Source of the DNA: Polymyxa betae
Lineage: Eukaryota; Endomyxa; Phytomyxea; Plasmodiophorida; Plasmodiophoridae
Assembly (NCBI GenBank): GCA_003693705.1
Contig: RBZT01000747.1
Span: 1 to 33,687 of the forward strand
Reading direction: 5' to 3'
Length of the DNA: 33,687 nt
Shown here: positions 5,150 through 33,687 of the stretch, in pieces
Layout: each line of letters starts with the position of its first letter
Numbering within the stretch: position 1 is the stretch's first letter
Position numbers and translations under genes: made by a program
The notes under the pieces: model-generated
What the model saw: the letters and a program-made list of their open reading frames with translations, nothing else
Database searches by the model: none
What the model was told of the DNA's origin: nothing

Positions 5150-6711
5150 ATGATCCTCGTACACGCCGTTGTCGTACTGGCTCTACAGGTCGTGGCCGCG
5201 GCGGCGGCCTCCGTCTCCCTGGTCGTCATTCGCCCGGGCTGCATCGACGACCAGTACGCCGTCGATTACGAACGCGACCTTCGAGTGCTGTCACGCTCGG
5301 ACTCGCTCCTGGACGCCCGGACCAGTACGACGGGGACGGGGTCCGGCAGCAGCTCCAGTTCGGACTCGCTTGGCGGCCGCAGTAGCTCGGTAACGTGCAG
5401 TACGGGCTGCTGTTCGGATTCTGCGGAGCATTCGGGCGTGTTTCGCGGCGTCCGGCGCAGAGACGGGCGCGACGTGATCGTGAAGCGGATTGCGAAGAGC
5501 GCGCAGCAGGAGGCGTTGAAGGAAGCGGAATTAATGGCGTTCCTGGATGGGGTCGACACGACCATGAGGCTGTACGACGTGGTCGAGAACGAGCAGTATT
5601 GTTACCTGGTGATGCAGTATTTCCAGGGGCGGACAGTCCGGGAGTATCTGCGGGATTTGGTCGCGGATTCGGAGTGCGGCTTTCAGGAGGTTATGGATCG
5701 GATCCGGTTTATAGCCGGATCGGTAGCGCGGACACTGACCCAGTTTCTAGATCGTGGCGTCATGCATTGGGATCTTCACTCCCTTAATGGTAGGTGCAGC
5801 GGCCTCCTCTTCCCACTTTTACAAACTGCGAAGCCTTTCTTTTATTAAGAGCTTTTCTTTTGCCAACTTTCCAAGTTTTCCGGAAAAAAATAATGATTTT
5901 GAAAATAGGACAGGCGGCCTCCTCTTCCCACTTTACAAACTATGAAGACTGTTTTTGTTATGAGCTTCCTTTCTTCCAATTCTCCAAATTTTCCGAAAAA
6001 AAATAACGCTTTTGAAGATGGAGCAGGGCTTTGGTTGTCTATACTGCTTCAAAAGATTAATTTTAACCTTTTGTAAGGTGTCCAACTTTTTTGGGGGGTT
6101 TAGGGTTTCTTAGGCCTCTGCTGGTACTGATTCGTCTCTTCCTCTCAGTGCTCATCGATGCCGACGACAACGTCGCTGTCATCGACCTTGGCCAATCACG
6201 GACGATCTTCGATCATTGGCTGCCGAATTACGAGCTCAACCTGATCCGATACGATTCGTTCAACGCCATGCAGTCGCGCAATTTCAAGATCTTCCTGAAG
6301 CAGCTGTTCCAGATCGCCGAGTGCAGATCCCAGGACTTACTGGTCCACGATCCGCTCTACCAACGGGTCGTACTGAACCCGCGGGCGTCGCTCCCGATCG
6401 CGGACCTGCTGACGGACGACGCCAAGGGCAAGTTGCGCGGCGAGAACGCCGCCCGGCGCTATCGCGATTTCCATCAGTCGTTCCCGTTGCGGAGTGCGCT
6501 GGGCGGCGCCGGGGCGGTACGACCGGTGGTGAGCGATGCGCAGATGGTGGCGCAGGCGCGATTCTGGGAGATGCGTCGCAGTCCGACGGAACCGAGCGGA
6601 CTCGAGCCTGAGGAGGTTGCGACGCTGCTGAGGTCGTTGTCGAAGAGAAGCAAAAGTCGGATTTTTGCGGTGTGGCTGTCGCGGTACATTTCCGGATCTG
6701 CCGAGGTTTAG
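5150..6711 (+). CDS. Secreted or luminal kinase-like protein with HWD catalytic loop
   Basis: Two exons, 5150-5789 and 6149-6711, give exactly 400 codons plus TAG. The ATG at 5150 begins a signal-peptide-like N terminus (about 20 residues, Val/Ala-rich). A Ser/Gly/Asp-rich linker follows at residues 45-95, then a protein-kinase fold: VIVKRI with the beta-3 Lys at 112, HWDLHSLN at 206-213 holding the catalytic Asp and Asn, and IDLGQS at 225-230 in place of DFG. No Gly-rich loop or APE motif can be seen, and Trp replaces Arg in HRD, so it is a non-RD and possibly atypical kinase. The 359-nt intron (GTAGGT...CTCTCAG) sits right after the catalytic Asn; joining the exons restores SLN|VLIDADDN. 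The intron carries a 115-bp tandem duplication and a telomere-like GGTTTAGGGTTT at 6097-6109. By its signal peptide it may act in the secretory pathway or outside the cell; this is inference. Confidence 0.8.
5799..6024 (+). repeat. 115-bp tandem duplication inside the kinase-like gene intron
   Basis: Two diverged copies begin at 5799 and 5914, each with GCGGCCTCCTCTTCCCACTT and each running through a T-rich stretch and TTTTCCG followed by an A-run. Each copy is preceded by AG, so each could offer a cryptic 3' splice site. Confidence 0.8.
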
Positions 6712-7663
6712 ATCCCGTGACCTATTTCAGCTAGGGTTAGGGTTGTACAGATGTAAAACTGATCGATCAATCATACTGTTCAACATAACATATTTGTCAA
6801 TAGAGACTATTCTATAGACTGAGAATTCTTTAAGAATCGGATCTTTCGCTGTAAATTGTTTTTTTATAGCAATCGTATTCTTTGAAAAATCATTTTGCCA
6901 AAGCCCAGAAATCTTTTTCCTTTATAGCTGCTGCTGCTGTTGAAACTAGGTACCATATGCAGAAACACTTTCAAAGGAACACAGAATTCTTTTCTAAACA
7001 GACGTACAGGAATATGAAGGAAGATTGGGACTACCGTAGCGGACCTTTCTACTTTGATTGTTTGGTAGTGCCAATATAACAAAGATTATAGGGGTCGATG
7101 CCGGGCTGAGAGTTCCAAACACAAAGCCAAAATGCAGATTTCATCGATACAACCATTTTCGAGTCTCGAGTTTGAAAATTGGCTCTCTCCCTTGCGCAGT
7201 TATAACGCATGAAAGTCGTTTGGAGAGCTGAGAGGTTGCCGATTGTCAAAGAGACAAAAAGTTTAAAGTGCGCTCAGATTTTCCACGGTACTTTTTGTCG
7301 ACAGTCATTTTGTATCAAAAACAGTATTTTGCGGACGCAGAGTTTGTGAGCATATTTTGAGTAGGAGAAAGTCGCAGCTTCCGTGAGCGCGCAAAATTCT
7401 TCGGCAGTTGATGCAACACCCATGACCTCGTAAAGCCACCGCCTCCTGTCGCAGGCATGCAGCTGCCTCTTCCGAAACATTCCTCCTCGCATGCTGGAAA
7501 TTGATGCTCGCAAAATTTTACGCAAATTGTGGAACTACATACAAAATGAAATTGTCGCTGTTGACAGAGTTATGGTGCTTCTGAATCCAAGCAGTCTGAT
7601 GATTGCTAAATTCGTTCAGTTCAATGATACATTTTATTGTAAGAATCCGGAAGCAAAAATAAC
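6712..7663. other. Intergenic region; telomere-like tract just after the kinase-like gene
   Basis: TAGGGTTAGGGTT lies at 6732-6744, about 20 bases past the stop of the kinase-like gene. A minus-strand frame at 7274-7525 has a protein-like composition in its middle, but no family was recognised and no clear splice sites flank it. Nothing else could be supported. Confidence 0.4.
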
Positions 7664-26456: not shown

Positions 26457-27093
26457 TGGGCAATGATTGTAATGACGCCGAGAAACGCGAAGAACATCGG
26501 CCGAAACTGCGCACTATCAGCTGGAAAGTGCGCCTAATTTTCTCTACCGTTGCGAACAGTTTTTAAAAACGCTGTCCTTTTGTTAGGGGGTTTGCGGATT
26601 TTATAAGATCGACCTGCAACCATGATCAACAACAGATTCAAAGGCAATCGATAGATTTCGGGCCATTGGGTTCATATGAGGTTCACGAAGTTTTAAAAAG
26701 ATCAAAATTTAAGTGAAATAGTCCGGCTTAAGTTTCTGAAAATAGCAAGTAGTTTGAAATCTCGTATGGATGATTGCTGTTTTCGCACAAAAGTGCGTGA
26801 GTGTACGTTCTGTCCCCACAGTGGAAAAATTCAACTCGCATATTTCATCCAAGAAAACTGCGGGGGAGTTTTCAGGCACGGATTGCTGTTTTCCCGTTTT
26901 CGCACAAAACTGCGAGAGTGTACAAACGGGCACAAAAGTGCGAGAGTGTACAAACGGGCACAAAAGTGCTAAAGTGTACGCTCTGTCCCCACAGTAGGAA
27001 CAGTCAAAACGCATTTTCATCCCAATGGAAATGCGCGGGACTTTTCAGGCAACCAATACACCTTTAGCTCTTGTTTCGCGATAACCTTTTCAT
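26457..27093. other. Intergenic region holding the duplicated block upstream of the BTB gene
   Basis: Apart from the repeats at 26772-27051 no feature was recognised. This is the shared 5' flank of the divergent three-span gene (minus) and the BTB gene (plus). Confidence 0.45.
26772..27051 (+). repeat. Imperfect duplication upstream of the BTB gene with a nested 28-bp tandem repeat
   Basis: Two copies (26772-26880 and 26881-27051) share GATTGCTGTTTTC at the start, CACAAAAGTGC...AGTGTACG, CTCTGTCCCCACAGT or its variant, and TTTTCAGGCA at the end. The second copy is longer because it holds TGCGAGAGTGTACAAACGGG plus CACAAAAG twice in tandem (26911-26938, 26939-26966) and a partial third copy. 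It ends about 40 bases before the BTB start codon. Confidence 0.85.
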
Positions 27094-27924
27094 ATGCTGA
27101 TTATGGAGAGCGTCCCTGTGTCGTCGCGTTCGCTGTTGGAGGATGTGGTGGCGGCTTTGTTCAATCAGGAGTCCTGCAGTGACCTGCGCCTTGTCGTCGA
27201 CGGCACGACGTTCTTCTGCCATCGGAACGTTCTATCTACGAAGAGCGAATATGTCCGACAGATGCTTCAATCTTCACTGTTAGAGAACCAATCTTCGCTT
27301 GTCGTCCAGCTGCCATTTCCGAGCGGTAACCCATCGTCACACGCGAGATTGTTCGAGCTCTATCTGAAGGTCGTCTACGGGCTTTTAGATCTGTCACAAG
27401 ATCACGTTTCGATCATACCGGTGGTGGCCAAGATCGCGGATTTTATGATGTCGAAATCCATTCTTGATCTATGCGATCATCTTCTGAGCTCTTCAAAGAT
27501 GAATCTCGATAGGCTTCTGTTTGCGCAGCGATATAACCTTCCTGTAACATTACACAATTGCATACAGAAAATGGCGAGCAATGCGATCGTACAGAGCCCG
27601 AAACTATTACGGATTAATCTGGAAAATATTCTAAAAATGGTGTCGCTCTGTGATCAGGGATCCTTTTATACAATGCGGCTCATTGTCTGCTATACATCCG
27701 AAGGACGTCAAAAGGGCATTGGGCCAGTACAGATTCACGGCGACGAGATGGTGCAGCTATTCAAATCGTGTATTGAAATGGCCGCCCAGAAATGGCCGCT
27801 GGAATTTGTGAAATATTTTCATGAACGGTTGGACGAAATCGAGCTGATCTACGATTCCGGTGAAAAAGATTCCGTGTTCATGCTGAAAACTATCGCTGAT
27901 CGATACATGAAAATGGTATCGTAG
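27094..27924 (+). CDS. BTB/POZ-domain protein
   Basis: An intronless frame of 276 codons ending TAG. Residues about 14-110 carry the BTB signature: DLRLVVDGTTFFCHRNVLST resembles the usual D(V/L)x(F/L)xVxGxxFxAHRxVLAA strand-helix start, followed by SEYVRQML (the S..F..ML position) and a later helix with VVYGLLDL. The C-terminal half is helical with no recognised partner domain; no Kelch, ankyrin or MATH repeats are seen. BTB proteins dimerise and many act as CUL3 ubiquitin-ligase adaptors, which is known for the family but not shown here. A second ATG three codons in is an equally good start. An imperfect repeat block ends just upstream and may overlap the promoter. Confidence 0.85.
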   Translation: MLIMESVPVSSRSLLEDVVAALFNQESCSDLRLVVDGTTFFCHRNVLSTKSEYVRQMLQSSLLENQSSLVVQLPFPSGNPSSHARLFELYLKVVYGLLDLSQDHVSIIPVVAKIADFMMSKSILDLCDHLLSSSKMNLDRLLFAQRYNLPVTLHNCIQKMASNAIVQSPKLLRINLENILKMVSLCDQGSFYTMRLIVCYTSEGRQKGIGPVQIHGDEMVQLFKSCIEMAAQKWPLEFVKYFHERLDEIELIYDSGEKDSVFMLKTIADRYMKMVS

Positions 27925-28528
27925 AAAGCCGACCAAAGTCCCAATTTGTTTTCAAAAAAAAGTTGAACTGTTAACAGCCTATTATGAGTGTGAATACACA
28001 CGATCTATTATAATAGTGGGCACAGGATTGAGAGGACCAGGAGCCACGGACTTTTTGCGAAGCTTAAGACGAGAAGGAGCGTTGATTCGAAAACGGCGTT
28101 GACCGAATTTTGCTACCTTGTTTAGCCTTGGTTATCGTTTACATAAGAATATTGTTCACAAAATCTTATATTCAGCAGCGAATTTTAAAAGCGGCTAAAA
28201 GTTGCTTCTATCAGAAATTGCTTCCAATGACCTGACAATGCCAATTCCAACAACTGGTTACAGCCCTCAATTTCCTAACAGCAACTTTAAAACGAAAATT
28301 GGGACACATTTCTGATTTTATCCTTCACAAATTCCGTTTCGCAATGAGTATTAGGGTTAGGGTTTGAATTGCAAGCGCCAGTAAGCAGTTCGTTTTGAGC
28401 CCAGCGAAACCGTTGTTAATGTTACATTGGTTGATGAAGCTGAGGTAACGTTACATGGCTGGCAGTCGGTCATGGTCGTCAGTCCGGATGCGATCGAACA
28501 GTACCACGCTCAACACGTCGTCGTCGTC
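27925..28528. other. Intergenic region with telomere-like tract and GTAACGTTAC palindrome
   Basis: TTAGGGTTAGGGTTT lies at 28351-28365 and a perfect palindrome GTAACGTTAC at 28445-28454, both upstream of the lectin start. The lectin frame is open back to 28427, but the residues are not convincing as a mature N terminus. Confidence 0.5.
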
Positions 28529-29248
28529 ATGCTGGCCCGACGCCGGCTCTGCGGAATGCGGCTCTGGCTGGGGCTGTACGCCGTGCTTCTGATGGCAGTG
28601 CCGAGGACGGCGGCCCGGATCACGATGAACTGGGTCCTGGACCCCATCGCCCTTATCAGCCCCAACGAAATGTTCGCCACCCGAATCGGCGGCGTCGTAC
28701 CGGCCCAGGCCGTGCTGAACCTGGCCTGCCCCAGTAACAACATCATCTCGACGATCAAGTTCGCGTCGTGGGGGCGGCCTTCGGGCCAGTTCCCGGACTT
28801 TGTCCGAACGAATTGTTCGGCGACGAACAGCAGCGCGATTGCGTCCGCCGCCTGTGTCGGGTCGGCGTCGTGTGCGTTGAACGCGTCGGCGGCGGTGTTC
28901 GGAGATCCGTGCCCCGGGGAGGCCAAGCAGCTCGCCGTGTTGGCGTTGTGTTCGCCGCTGATTGGGAGCGCGGCCTCCGAGGAGAATACCGCCCATCTGC
29001 AGTGTCCGGGCAGCCAGCTCATGTCCGTGATCACGTTCGCGTCGTTCGGGAGGCCGAGCGGCAGCTTTCCCAACTACCAGACGACGTCGTGTGCGTCGTC
29101 GTCCAGTCATCAAGTGGTGGCGGCCTCCTGTCTCGGACGGAATTCGTGCTCGGTCCTGTCCAATATTGGCGTGTTTGGTGATCCGTGTTCGGGATTGGGA
29201 AAATGGCTCTATATAGTGGCGTTATGCACAGATCTCGTGTTTGCATAG
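28529..29248 (+). CDS. Secreted protein with two SUEL-type (rhamnose/galactose-binding) lectin domains
   Basis: A single exon of 239 codons plus TAG. The ATG at 28529 gives a signal peptide with basic start (MLARRRL) and hydrophobic core (LWLGLYAVLLMAVP); the ATG at 28556 is a possible alternative. Two SUEL lectin domains follow at about residues 63-141 and 155-233. Each has the pattern C...I..I.FAS(W/F)GRPSG.FP......C........AA.C.G...C.......VFGDPC.G..K.L.V.ALC, with GRPSG at the position of the animal YGR motif and FGDPC at the DPC motif. Conserved Cys pairs are present in both. SUEL domains bind galactose or rhamnose in animal egg lectins and occur in plant and protist proteins. No membrane anchor is seen, so secretion is expected. 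The gene sits between two paralogous membrane protein genes. Confidence 0.9.
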   Translation: MLARRRLCGMRLWLGLYAVLLMAVPRTAARITMNWVLDPIALISPNEMFATRIGGVVPAQAVLNLACPSNNIISTIKFASWGRPSGQFPDFVRTNCSATNSSAIASAACVGSASCALNASAAVFGDPCPGEAKQLAVLALCSPLIGSAASEENTAHLQCPGSQLMSVITFASFGRPSGSFPNYQTTSCASSSSHQVVAASCLGRNSCSVLSNIGVFGDPCSGLGKWLYIVALCTDLVFA

Positions 29249-29803
29249 CTGTAAACCCTAAACCCTAATATATTGTCAGATTTGTGATTTGTGGAAGAAG
29301 ACTGCCTTGACGAGTACATTTGACGTAAAGCCCAAAGTTGTGATCTTCTGATTTTGTTTGAATGGCGCAGTATTTTTGACACAAACTTCGAACGGAGGCC
29401 GAGTGAGAGGCCAGCATCGTTCCAGTCGCGCATTTTTCATCTTTTCATAGCGCACTTTTTCGCATTTCACATTATGGCAGAGTGTTCTCGCTGTTTCTCA
29501 GAAAAGATGCGGGTTTCTCAAATGTTCTGCTGCTATGAAAAATATCCAATTCCGAAAGCCATCAAGATGGTTCTGATCAGATTAGCTTCCAAGCAAAAGA
29601 TCGGCAAAAGGCAGTTCACTATTTGAACGAAACATCTCGGATCAAAGAGAGAATCGAGAGAGAAGTTCTGCGCGAAAACTCTCGGCTATTCTGTGACATT
29701 AAAAAGCGGGCAAAGATTACAGTATGCGCCAAGAGGCGTTCTTAAAATTTCAACTTTTATAAAAAAACAACTGTACAAGAACATCGAAATAGATTCAGCA
29801 ACG
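29249..29803. other. Intergenic region starting with a telomere-like tract
   Basis: AAACCCTAAACCCTAA lies at 29253-29268, five bases past the lectin stop codon. The sequence GTAAACCC...TATTGTCAG (29251-29279) would itself pass as a 29-nt GT-AG mini-intron in the 3' UTR. Nothing else was recognised. Confidence 0.5.
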
Positions 29804-31530: not shown

Positions 31531-33233
31531 TTAGTGTGATGCGGGCGCGAGTTTGTCCACGATGGGATCGGGTTCCGTGTGCTTCCGAGCCACGGACTGG
31601 AACTTGGCGTTGGTGGCCGGTAACCTAACATTCAGAATGGCCGCGTACCTGCTGGTGAACAAATCTTTGCTCTTGGCCATTTTGGTCACGAATGCGCCCA
31701 GATTGAACCCGAACAGTAACGAGACGCCGGTTTTCGGTCCGACCGGGACAATCATGGTCGAATAGCCCGCGGGCTTGTACGGCTTCATGGCGTTACCGTT
31801 TTGTAACGCGATCAAGTTTTTCGCTAACAGCGAGGCGTGATTGCCGGCGTACGCCGCCAGACGGTCTTCGTCGGCCTGGATACAGTCGCCGATGGCGAAG
31901 ACGTTGTTCTGGCCCTCGACCTTGAAAGGGTTAGGGTTTAGGGTTTAGGGTTTCCAATCCGACCTGGAAGAATTCGTTCACTTTCAGTCGCCCTTTGTCG
32001 TCGAGCGCGAACTCTTTCGCGTATGACGAGTTGTTCATCTGTTGACAGTTAGGGTTTTAGGGTTTGTCGGCCACCTGGCTGACCTTGGTGACACCGATGC
32101 AGACGAAAACCAGGTCGGCTTCGAATTGTTCGCCGTTGGATAGACGGACGTTGGTGGGGCCTTTAATGACGGACGTCCCATTCCAGTCATCTATATAAGC
32201 GACCACGTTCGTCTTGACCTGAATGCCTTGTTGCTGGACGCAACGCTCCAGATTCGATATGAACTTCTCCGGCTTGTTCGACTGACATAATCGGGGAAGT
32301 TTGGAGATTATCGTCACCTATCTCGCAAGTTTAGATTATTTCTTCAAAATCGAATTTGAAAGAATATAGCAGTTCGTATTCGAAGTGACCAAAAAACAAT
32401 TCCGGGAAGAGAAAAATTTCTTGCAGAATATCGAATCAAAGCATCACAAGTTGAAGATAATTCATTCAAGAAAGCTAAAAAGCAACTAAAAACCATCATA
32501 AAATTCGCAAACAAATTGACAAGTTTAAACAGGCCAATTTGACCAATTCTTTGAGTATCAACTGACTTTTATAAAACAAACAGTGATAATTTCTATGAGA
32601 AAACAGCTGGCCCAATAAGGTTTTAAAGAGTCTGAAATGCAAGAAAGTTTGTCATTGCAGTAATCGATGGACACAACTTTTTGTGAACAAAAATATCGTA
32701 TCGAAGTTTACCTCTTTATCGGGATGCTGAGCCTTGATCTCGCCGGCAAATTCGCAGGAGACGGGCCCGCCTCCGACCACCACCACCCGACGTCCAGCCC
32801 GGCCCAGGTCGTCGACGGCCTGGGCGTACTCGCGACGGGCCTGCGGACCGTTCGTGGCCTGGATCTGGCACGGGAAGGCGAACATCGACCCGGTCGCGAT
32901 CACCACGTAATCGAACGTGACGGCTTGGTCGCGGCCAGCGACCTAGAGTCATGAAAACCCTAACCCTAAAACCCTAAAACCCTAACCGACCTTAATCGCC
33001 GTCCCTGTGATACTGGTAACTTCGGCCTGGATGAAAGTCCCTTTGCGCAACAAGTCCGTGTACGGCAGGACGATATTGTCGACGAATCCCGGTACGACCG
33101 AGGCGCGCATTGCGCCGACGTTATGCAGGAAATAGTCCTTCCGATCGATCAGGTAAACTTGGAAATGCGATTCCAGGGCCTTGGCCAGGGCGATCCCGCC
33201 GTACCCGCCCCCGACAATGGCGACCGTCTTCAT
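31531..33233 (-). CDS. AIFM2/FSP1-like FAD-dependent NAD(P)H oxidoreductase
   Basis: Five exons, 33233-32991, 32942-32712, 32317-32075, 32038-31964 and 31920-31531, each a whole number of codons, give 393 aa with TAA stop; all introns are phase 0. The FAD-binding Rossmann motif VAIVGGGYGG lies at residues 4-13, VVIATGS precedes the NAD(P)H-binding motif VVVVGGGPVSCEFAGE, VFVCIG follows, and NVFAIGD is the second FAD-binding motif. Length and motif order fit the AIFM2/FSP1 (AMID) branch of the AIF family, about 370-400 aa, whose members reduce quinones with NAD(P)H. No mitochondrial presequence is visible and the protein starts at the Rossmann strand, as in FSP1. It does not start MG, so the FSP1 myristoylation signal is absent. 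Three of the four introns are 36-48 nt and made of telomere-like repeats; intron 2 (394 nt) is ordinary and AT-rich. Confidence 0.93.
31921..31963 (-). repeat. Mini-intron 4 of the FSP1-like gene, telomere repeats in CCCTAAA orientation
   Basis: A 43-nt intron GTCGGATTGG...TTTCAAG whose centre is AAACCCTAAACCCTAAACCC and a further TAACCC on the coding strand. Removing it joins NEFFQ to VEGQNNVFAIGD. Confidence 0.88.
32039..32074 (-). repeat. Mini-intron 3 of the FSP1-like gene, telomere repeats in CCCTAAA orientation
   Basis: A 36-nt intron GTGGCC...CAACAG containing AAACCCTAAAACCCTAA on the coding strand. Read through, it creates a stop (TAA) from the repeat itself. Confidence 0.85.
32943..32990 (-). 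repeat. Mini-intron 1 of the FSP1-like gene, telomere repeats in TTAGGG orientation
   Basis: A 48-nt intron GTCGG...CTCTAG whose body is TTAGGG, two TTTTAGGG units and another TTAGGG on the coding strand, the opposite orientation to introns 3 and 4. It joins GTAIK to VAGRDQAVTFDYVVIATG. Confidence 0.9.
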
Positions 33234-33687
33234 TGGACCCTTTCCCTTTCGCAGACGGAACGTTTAAGTAACCTGGGCGTGATTGTGTCCACGATCGATC
33301 TGTTGGAAACCGTTGTACGAGTAAATGCAAATCGGGTTGTGCTCGAATCCTTTCCTGTCCGTCATAGAGACCGGTCGAACGTTTTGTCCACTAGTGGATA
33401 GAGGCCGCGCTGTCCCCTTGTGTACACCCTCGTCACAGCTATCCACTAGTGGACACCCTCGTCACAGCTATCCACTAGTGGACACCCTCGTCACAGCTAT
33501 CCACTAGTGGACACCCTCGTCACAGCTATCCACTAGTGGACACCCTCGTCACAGCTATCCACTAGTGGACACCCTCGTCACAGCTATCCACTAGTGGACA
33601 CCCTCGTCACAGCTATCCACTATTCTTTGTATGGGATCTGCTCGCTGTCTTGAATAAGTGGTCGATTCAGCGTTTCTGTGCCTGGCA
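33234..33687. other. 5' flank of the FSP1-like gene
   Basis: Holds the minisatellite at 33427-33620 and an isolated TCCACTAGTGGA at about 33388-33399. No gene recognised. Confidence 0.5.
33427..33620. repeat. 29-bp minisatellite with palindromic core
   Basis: Units start at 33427, 33456, 33485, 33514, 33543, 33572 and 33601: six complete, essentially identical copies and a partial seventh. The unit runs CCCTCGTCACAGCTAT followed by CCACTAGTGG and ACA. CCACTAGTGG is a perfect 10-bp palindrome. The array lies about 190-390 bases upstream of the FSP1-like start codon. Confidence 0.97.

Follow-up and report, generated by a model that had tools for sequence, protein, structure and literature searches.

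Telomere-repeat tracts in the mini-introns of an FSP1-like gene and what they may say about intron gain and take-over

How might a conserved gene come to carry introns built to a large extent of telomere repeat? The question is raised by an FSP1-like gene on a window of 33,687 nucleotides (the whole stretch of DNA analysed here, contig C104 of a 24.4-Mb assembly in 541 contigs). An earlier note on the letters of this window had described three of the four introns of the gene as mainly telomeric, and had proposed that they were born from telomeric DNA captured at double-strand breaks. We find that the predicted introns are very likely real and largely telomere repeat. We also think it fairly probable that introns 1, 3 and 4 are spliceosomal mini-introns whose telomeric bodies came from break repair, with gain of new introns and take-over of old ones both operating.

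The gene encodes a spliced product of 390 residues, an FSP1/AIFM2-like NAD(P)H:quinone oxidoreductase (Table 1). Its top homolog among the matches listed is from Plasmodiophora brassicae (45% identity, 94% coverage), its Pfam domain is Pyr_redox_2 and its top PDB match is an FSP1 structure (E 8e-58); these homolog, Pfam and PDB searches used a 393-residue version of the protein in which intron 3 is 36 nt long. The gene is single-copy in the assembly, and so offers no paralog comparison for the gain of its introns. A 29-bp tandem repeat (7.4 copies, 97% match, window 33409-33622) lies directly upstream of it. The window has a G+C content of 46.6%, and values of 45.1% and 45.7% are given for Polymyxa/Spongospora (PMC6328671); with the P. 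brassicae homolog, this agrees with a plasmodiophorid of that sort. We considered that the assembly might mix two organisms, which is unlikely: XPD is found at one locus and RPB2-type genes at three, so that the assembly looks like one organism.

Table 1. Features of the FSP1-like gene, its introns and their telomere tracts (positions in the window)
Feature	Position	Strand	Remarks
FSP1/AIFM2-like NAD(P)H:quinone oxidoreductase gene	31531..33233	-	Homologs, Pfam Pyr_redox_2, PDB FSP1, alignment, gene finder; exons 32991-33233, 32712-32942, 32084-32317, 31964-32038, 31531-31920
Intron 1, 48 nt, phase 0	32943..32990	-	G-rich telomere strand in sense; TAG/TGA/TAG in frame if retained
Telomere tract of intron 1, 33 nt, spacers T2 and T4	32954..32986	-	
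Direct repeat AGGTCG, 5' end of intron 1	32987..32992	-	Partner 32939-32944; junction score 6
Direct repeat AGGTCG, 3' end of intron 1	32939..32944	-	
Intron 2, 394 nt, phase 0, without telomere doublet	32318..32711	-	Gene finder, penalties 12 and 14
Intron 3, 45 nt, phase 0	32039..32083	-	C-rich telomere strand in sense; gene finder and alignment
Telomere tract of intron 3, 17 nt	32049..32065	-	
Intron 4, 43 nt, phase 0	31921..31963	-	C-rich telomere strand in sense; frameshift if retained
Telomere tract of intron 4, 27 nt, spacers 3, 3, 2	31927..31953	-	
Near direct repeat TTCCAGGTCG, 5' end of intron 4	31960..31969	-	9/10 bases against partner; junction score 7
Near direct repeat TTCAAGGTCG, 3' end of intron 4	31917..31926	-	Partner of TTCCAGGTCG

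Genes were predicted from codon use and splice-site weights by a simple trained gene finder that had no telomere term, at intron penalties of 12, 14 and 16; weaker penalties gave far too many introns and were abandoned for these stronger ones. At penalties 12 and 14 it returns the four FSP1 introns exactly as listed in Table 1, and at 16 introns 3 and 4 come out as one and the acceptor of intron 2 is shifted. Left unspliced, introns 1, 3 and 4 each bring an in-frame stop, and intron 4 a frameshift as well. The GT-AG ends of the FSP1 introns restore the conserved reading frame, as in U2-type spliceosomal introns, and at introns 1 and 4 the spliced protein aligns with its homologs without a gap. 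For intron 3 a length of 45 nt is most likely. This form joins CIGVTK to MNNSSY, gives a gapless alignment with the P. brassicae protein (CTGNSHVNNSCF), with a one-residue gap at the site in the other five aligned homologs, and has a donor (AAG followed by GTCAGC) of the GTNNG type preferred in the gene-finder set. The earlier figure of 36 nt for this intron is thereby replaced, and the 43 and 48 nt given for the other two are retained. Homolog alignment and two of the three gene-finder settings agree with the phase 0 splices proposed for the conserved AIF-family frame, and the two orientations are also seen, with the G strand in intron 1 and the C strand in introns 3 and 4.

The T2-4AGGG repeat occupies 33 of the 48 nt of intron 1, 17 of the 45 nt of intron 3 and 27 of the 43 nt of intron 4, so that the description "mainly telomeric" is valid for introns 1 and 4 only. 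The donors of introns 1, 3 and 4 read GTCGG, GTCAG and GTCGG, and the GT is therefore not supplied by the telomere unit in FSP1, as had been suggested from GTTAGGG. That suggestion does find a place elsewhere, since GTTAGG donors occur in a gene on contig C5, which we take to be WD40-like, and in another on C31, consistent with the G strand as a source of donors. Short direct repeats lie at the junctions of introns 1 and 4, and the junctions of intron 3 share AG only.

Telomere doublets number 12 in the window, against a mean of 0.01 and a maximum of 1 in 100 order-1 simulations. Five doublets of the window fall outside the FSP1-like gene, at 6733, 14016, 25348, 28353 and 29256. The one at 29256, intron-like by eye, begins 8 bp past the end of a frame that encodes two lectin domains of the SUEL (galactose/rhamnose-binding) type; a BTB-domain frame lies next to it (window 28385-29248 and 27085-27924). 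Another gene of the window has a long intron (5790-6103, found at all three penalties) with its acceptor inside a TTTAGGG unit, cut between TTTAG (6099-6103) and GG; a 113-bp tandem repeat (1.9 copies, window 5799-6016) lies within this predicted intron.

The excess extends to the whole genome. The doublet TTAGGGTTTAGGG occurs 145+138 times (283), TTAGGGTTAGGG 164+138 times (302) and TTAGGGTTTTAGGG 78+89 times (167), against 2+2, 4+1 and 0+2 for the reversed controls, in counts that take in several arrays located at contig ends or close to them (C64, C167, C171). C167 ends in a telomere array whose spacers are T2 and T3. On C171 (locus L054, 11640-12298) an array some 190 bp long, set about 130 bp in from the contig end and with non-telomeric sequence after it, mixes TTAGGG, TTTAGGG and TTTTAGGG, that is T2, T3 and T4 spacers. 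The mixed units of the introns thus match this assembly's own repeat, and in having at least two such units at internal sites the tracts agree with short interstitial telomeric sequences. In P. brassicae the telomere repeat is TTTTAGGG (PMC6823432). Spacers number 92 T3, 32 T2, 17 T4 and 3 T5 in the other fetched loci, and T2 accounts for 18 of 24 in L054, a difference that carries no conclusion because the bait favours T3. Tracts are regionally clustered, reaching 5 to 8 per 10 kb in stretches of the small, high-GC3 contigs C5, C27 and C35, and 14 kb of three large contigs held no doublet.

Where the tracts lie was determined in a sample of the window and 20 loci (219 kb), the loci having been picked for holding a TTAGGGTTTAGGG doublet. 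The sample contains 53 tracts, 32 of them intergenic, 5 exonic and 16 intronic at penalty 12 (33, 4 and 16 at penalty 14). Their density per kb is 3.06 in introns of at most 70 nt, 0.45 in longer introns, 0.24 in intergenic sequence and 0.08 in exons, so mini-introns exceed intergenic sequence about 13-fold, or 9-fold when the window is left out. Among non-coding bases, introns of at most 70 nt hold 7 tracts where 0.70 are expected (P 9e-6); without the window the density is 2.13 per kb, with 4 tracts against 0.55 expected (P 0.0025). A telomere score of at least 12 is reached by 7 of 47 introns of 30-75 nt (three of the seven being those of FSP1), by 0 of 376 shuffles and by 1.3% of 600 intergenic 50-mers. 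The enrichment of telomere units to be expected of telomeric introns is thus borne out, genome-wide as an excess over reversed controls and in the sample as a concentration in mini-introns. The remaining short introns of the gene-finder set score 8 or less (next-best 8 and 6), making the distribution bimodal, and a widespread population of decayed telomeric introns, which we had considered, is not seen in that set. A telomere-blind choice of kinase genes from 151 matches provided 29 gaps between adjacent kinase exons, none of which contains a doublet, and a single telomere unit was found in 1 of 20 kinase loci; telomeric introns therefore look like a small share of introns. As a class they look both small and distinct, and probably young.

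For a closer comparison, 11 telomeric introns were set by hand: three in FSP1, two in XPD, and one each in an AGC kinase, a P-type ATPase, a permease, the WD40-like protein, a putative RNA methyltransferase (a presumptive label) and a gene of unknown function on C31. Homology spans the junction in 8 of the 11, and the other three rest on coding potential. XPD has a 61-residue gapless match at one of its telomeric introns, with the DEAD_2 domain spanning the other, and in the AGC kinase and P-type ATPase homology crosses the junction. The permease has a weak Pfam match below cut-off and paralogs at 44% and 43%; the Pfam match of the putative methyltransferase is also weak. Additional degenerate telomere-like stretches, perhaps older telomeric introns, were seen by eye between exons of the XPD gene (L055, C173:41200-43400, at about 1060-1430). 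A metagenomic XPD fragment of 103 residues (P0235; 95% identity, query coverage 23%) has DKFR as its last residues, exactly where the second telomeric intron of XPD starts; a close relative may have another intron there.

Telomeric introns have a median length of 48 nt (n=11), against 53 nt for 25 kinase introns, of which 20 measure 36-60 nt, the ordinary size here. With the tract removed, 7 of the 11 would be shorter than 30 nt, and the shortest of the 25 kinase introns has 36 nt. Because their lengths are not above ordinary and most would be this short without it, the tract is part of the intron rather than a simple addition. Its position depends on orientation: the midpoints of G-strand tracts (n=6) fall at 0.24-0.43 of intron length and those of C-strand tracts (n=5) at 0.46-0.59 (P 0.004), as would suit a G strand that provides donors and a C strand that provides branch points. 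The branch-point motif CTAAC, contained in the CCCTAAC of FSP1 introns 3 and 4, occurs 4 times in 65 ordinary introns where 1.5 are expected, a weak signal.

Junction repeats may set some of these introns apart. A score of at least 6 is found in 3 of the 11 telomeric introns and in 1 of 81 controls (56 gene-finder and 25 kinase introns; Fisher P 0.005), and the other 8 telomeric introns have no notable junction repeat. A general target duplication is not evident in the flanks of 92 tracts, whose mean of 5.52 shows no clear excess over the 5.16 of re-paired flanks. Read side by side, the 11 introns share telomere units alone, in both orientations, and not the common sequence that would mark them as introners.

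Paralogs provide evidence on whether such introns are born or taken over. The best case for gain, and a good one, is the AGC kinase (contig C9), where the telomeric intron divides HAW from F and is missing in all 11 paralog matches spanning query residues 95-110 (one of which has a TGA inside); its ends carry the near-duplicate ATGCTTGGT/ATGCTAGGT, alike at 8 of 9 bp. The telomeric intron of the permease (C12) is without a junction repeat, and both paralogs are unbroken at its site. The P-type ATPase (C101) tells another story. Among its 24 domain matches, 17 are continuous across the site, two of these with internal stops, and the remaining 7, one of which is its own, end nearby. Of the six others ending there, four were read. 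In three of them an ordinary intron (48, 57 and 56 nt) occupies the same codon in the same phase, and the fourth has a 54-nt intron a few codons further. The site is thus old in this subgroup, and the telomere tract a take-over. For the telomeric introns of a gene at locus L019, the paralog on C495 breaks near both tested sites and that on C298 near the first, and that on C99 is continuous through the second. Together with the ATPase, this indicates that telomere sequence also enters old introns. Hence the idea of telomere-born introns keeps a gain-like case in the AGC kinase and, as a general rule, finds no support in the ATPase, the L019 gene or the weak flank excess. In FSP1, the junction repeats suggest that introns 1 and 4 were gained.

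These observations can be joined in one account. The intron bodies would be short interstitial telomeric sequences, two to four units of the genome's own mixed T2-4AGGG repeat. Hundreds of scattered tracts would most likely arise during double-strand break repair, by telomerase addition or capture of telomeric DNA; insertion by break repair we consider likely, and the involvement of telomerase, actual splicing and the age of the FSP1 introns we infer. Tracts landing in exons would mostly be lost, and tracts would be kept and spliced out if they fell within an intron or at an AG/GT site that was duplicated into donor and acceptor. One route would thereby lead to new introns (the AGC kinase, FSP1 introns 1 and 4) and another to the take-over of old ones (the P-type ATPase). 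That FSP1 introns 1 and 4 were born by telomere insertion is about an even call. Telomeric DNA as a general route to new introns is possible, one good case speaking for it and at least one clear case against. We put at somewhat less than even the bolder idea that telomere repeat is self-sufficient intron material in this lineage, so that, through telomerase or telomeric DNA, breaks in genes would keep yielding mini-introns, with the G strand nearer the donor (through GTTAGG) and the C strand nearer the acceptor (through the CTAAC branch point).

It could instead be that every one of these introns is old and was partly replaced by a telomere tract through repair of an internal break, none being telomere-born. 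Such a history fits the ATPase, where three of the four paralogs read have an ordinary intron of much the same length at that site and phase, as well as the paralog breaks near both tested sites of the L019 gene and the commonness of mini-introns of 36-60 nt (20 of 25 in kinases). It sits poorly with the AGC kinase intron, which all 11 paralog matches lack and which has a 9-bp near-repeat at its ends, with the permease intron, missing in both paralogs, and with the higher tract density of mini-introns compared with longer introns. We regard it as rather unlikely, and continue to favour break repair that feeds gain and take-over alike.

Far less probable still is a regulatory role, in which protein binding would preserve the units and introns would merely be one more location. 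The telo boxes of plants show enrichment in 5' UTRs; among introns, they are commoner in the first two (PMC3022908). Here, however, unit number, spacer length and orientation are freely variable, and the 32 intergenic tracts include 8 within 300 bp of a predicted start, 9 within that distance of a predicted stop and 15 near neither (in gene models that are incomplete); we rejected this promoter reading, as intergenic tracts have no bias to gene starts. We give similarly little credence to the idea that unspliced insertions, allelic disruption or assembly errors mimic introns. The assembly is split over 541 contigs, and a frame-breaking insertion can make a gene finder call an intron, but conserved proteins are exactly restored in several genes, the gene finder is concordant at its two lower penalties and less so at the highest, and the donors match the GTNNG preference.

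These observations bear on where new introns obtain their sequence. Telomere repeat is recognisable, has two orientations and decays visibly, so that a genome using it would allow intron birth, take-over and ageing to be dated and counted, and telomere repair would have a lasting role in gene structure. Among the papers listed in searches of the open-access literature, judged by title and start of abstract, none was on introns made from telomere repeats, and the telomere route to introns appears plausible and is unreported in the literature so searched.

Several known systems resemble parts of this picture. As in the break-repair introns of Daphnia, new introns would arise here with, in some cases, short direct repeats at opposite ends (PMC4202315; PMC3443670). 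Most Daphnia neointrons have no known source, whereas here it would be telomere repeat, and the searched texts of those two papers do not contain the string 'telomer'. In Drosophila, junction repeats are equally frequent in conserved and gained introns (PMC3443670). Introners, which are intron-making transposons, likewise spread one kind of sequence across many introns (PMC12730881), but the 11 introns here share the telomere unit alone, in either orientation. Plant telo boxes are also interstitial telomere motifs near genes, for which non-processive telomerase acting at free 3' ends has been proposed as well; a telo box, however, is defined by one unit and is concentrated in 5' UTRs (PMC3022908), and the 11 introns here have 2 to 4 units, with intergenic tracts showing no start bias. 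A further counterpart is found in the interstitial telomeric sequences of mammals (primates, rodents and the horse), which were inserted at double-strand breaks (PMC7215372). Like the tracts described here they are short, with few internal units; theirs carry marks of repair, with one target duplication in the horse (PMC7215372). Human tracts are intronic in 31% of cases and exonic in none, their intron share equals random expectation, and the effect of mammalian tracts on splicing was left open by the authors (PMC7215372). Unlike these human tracts, those of our sample make up much of tiny introns, where they are about 13 times denser than in intergenic sequence.
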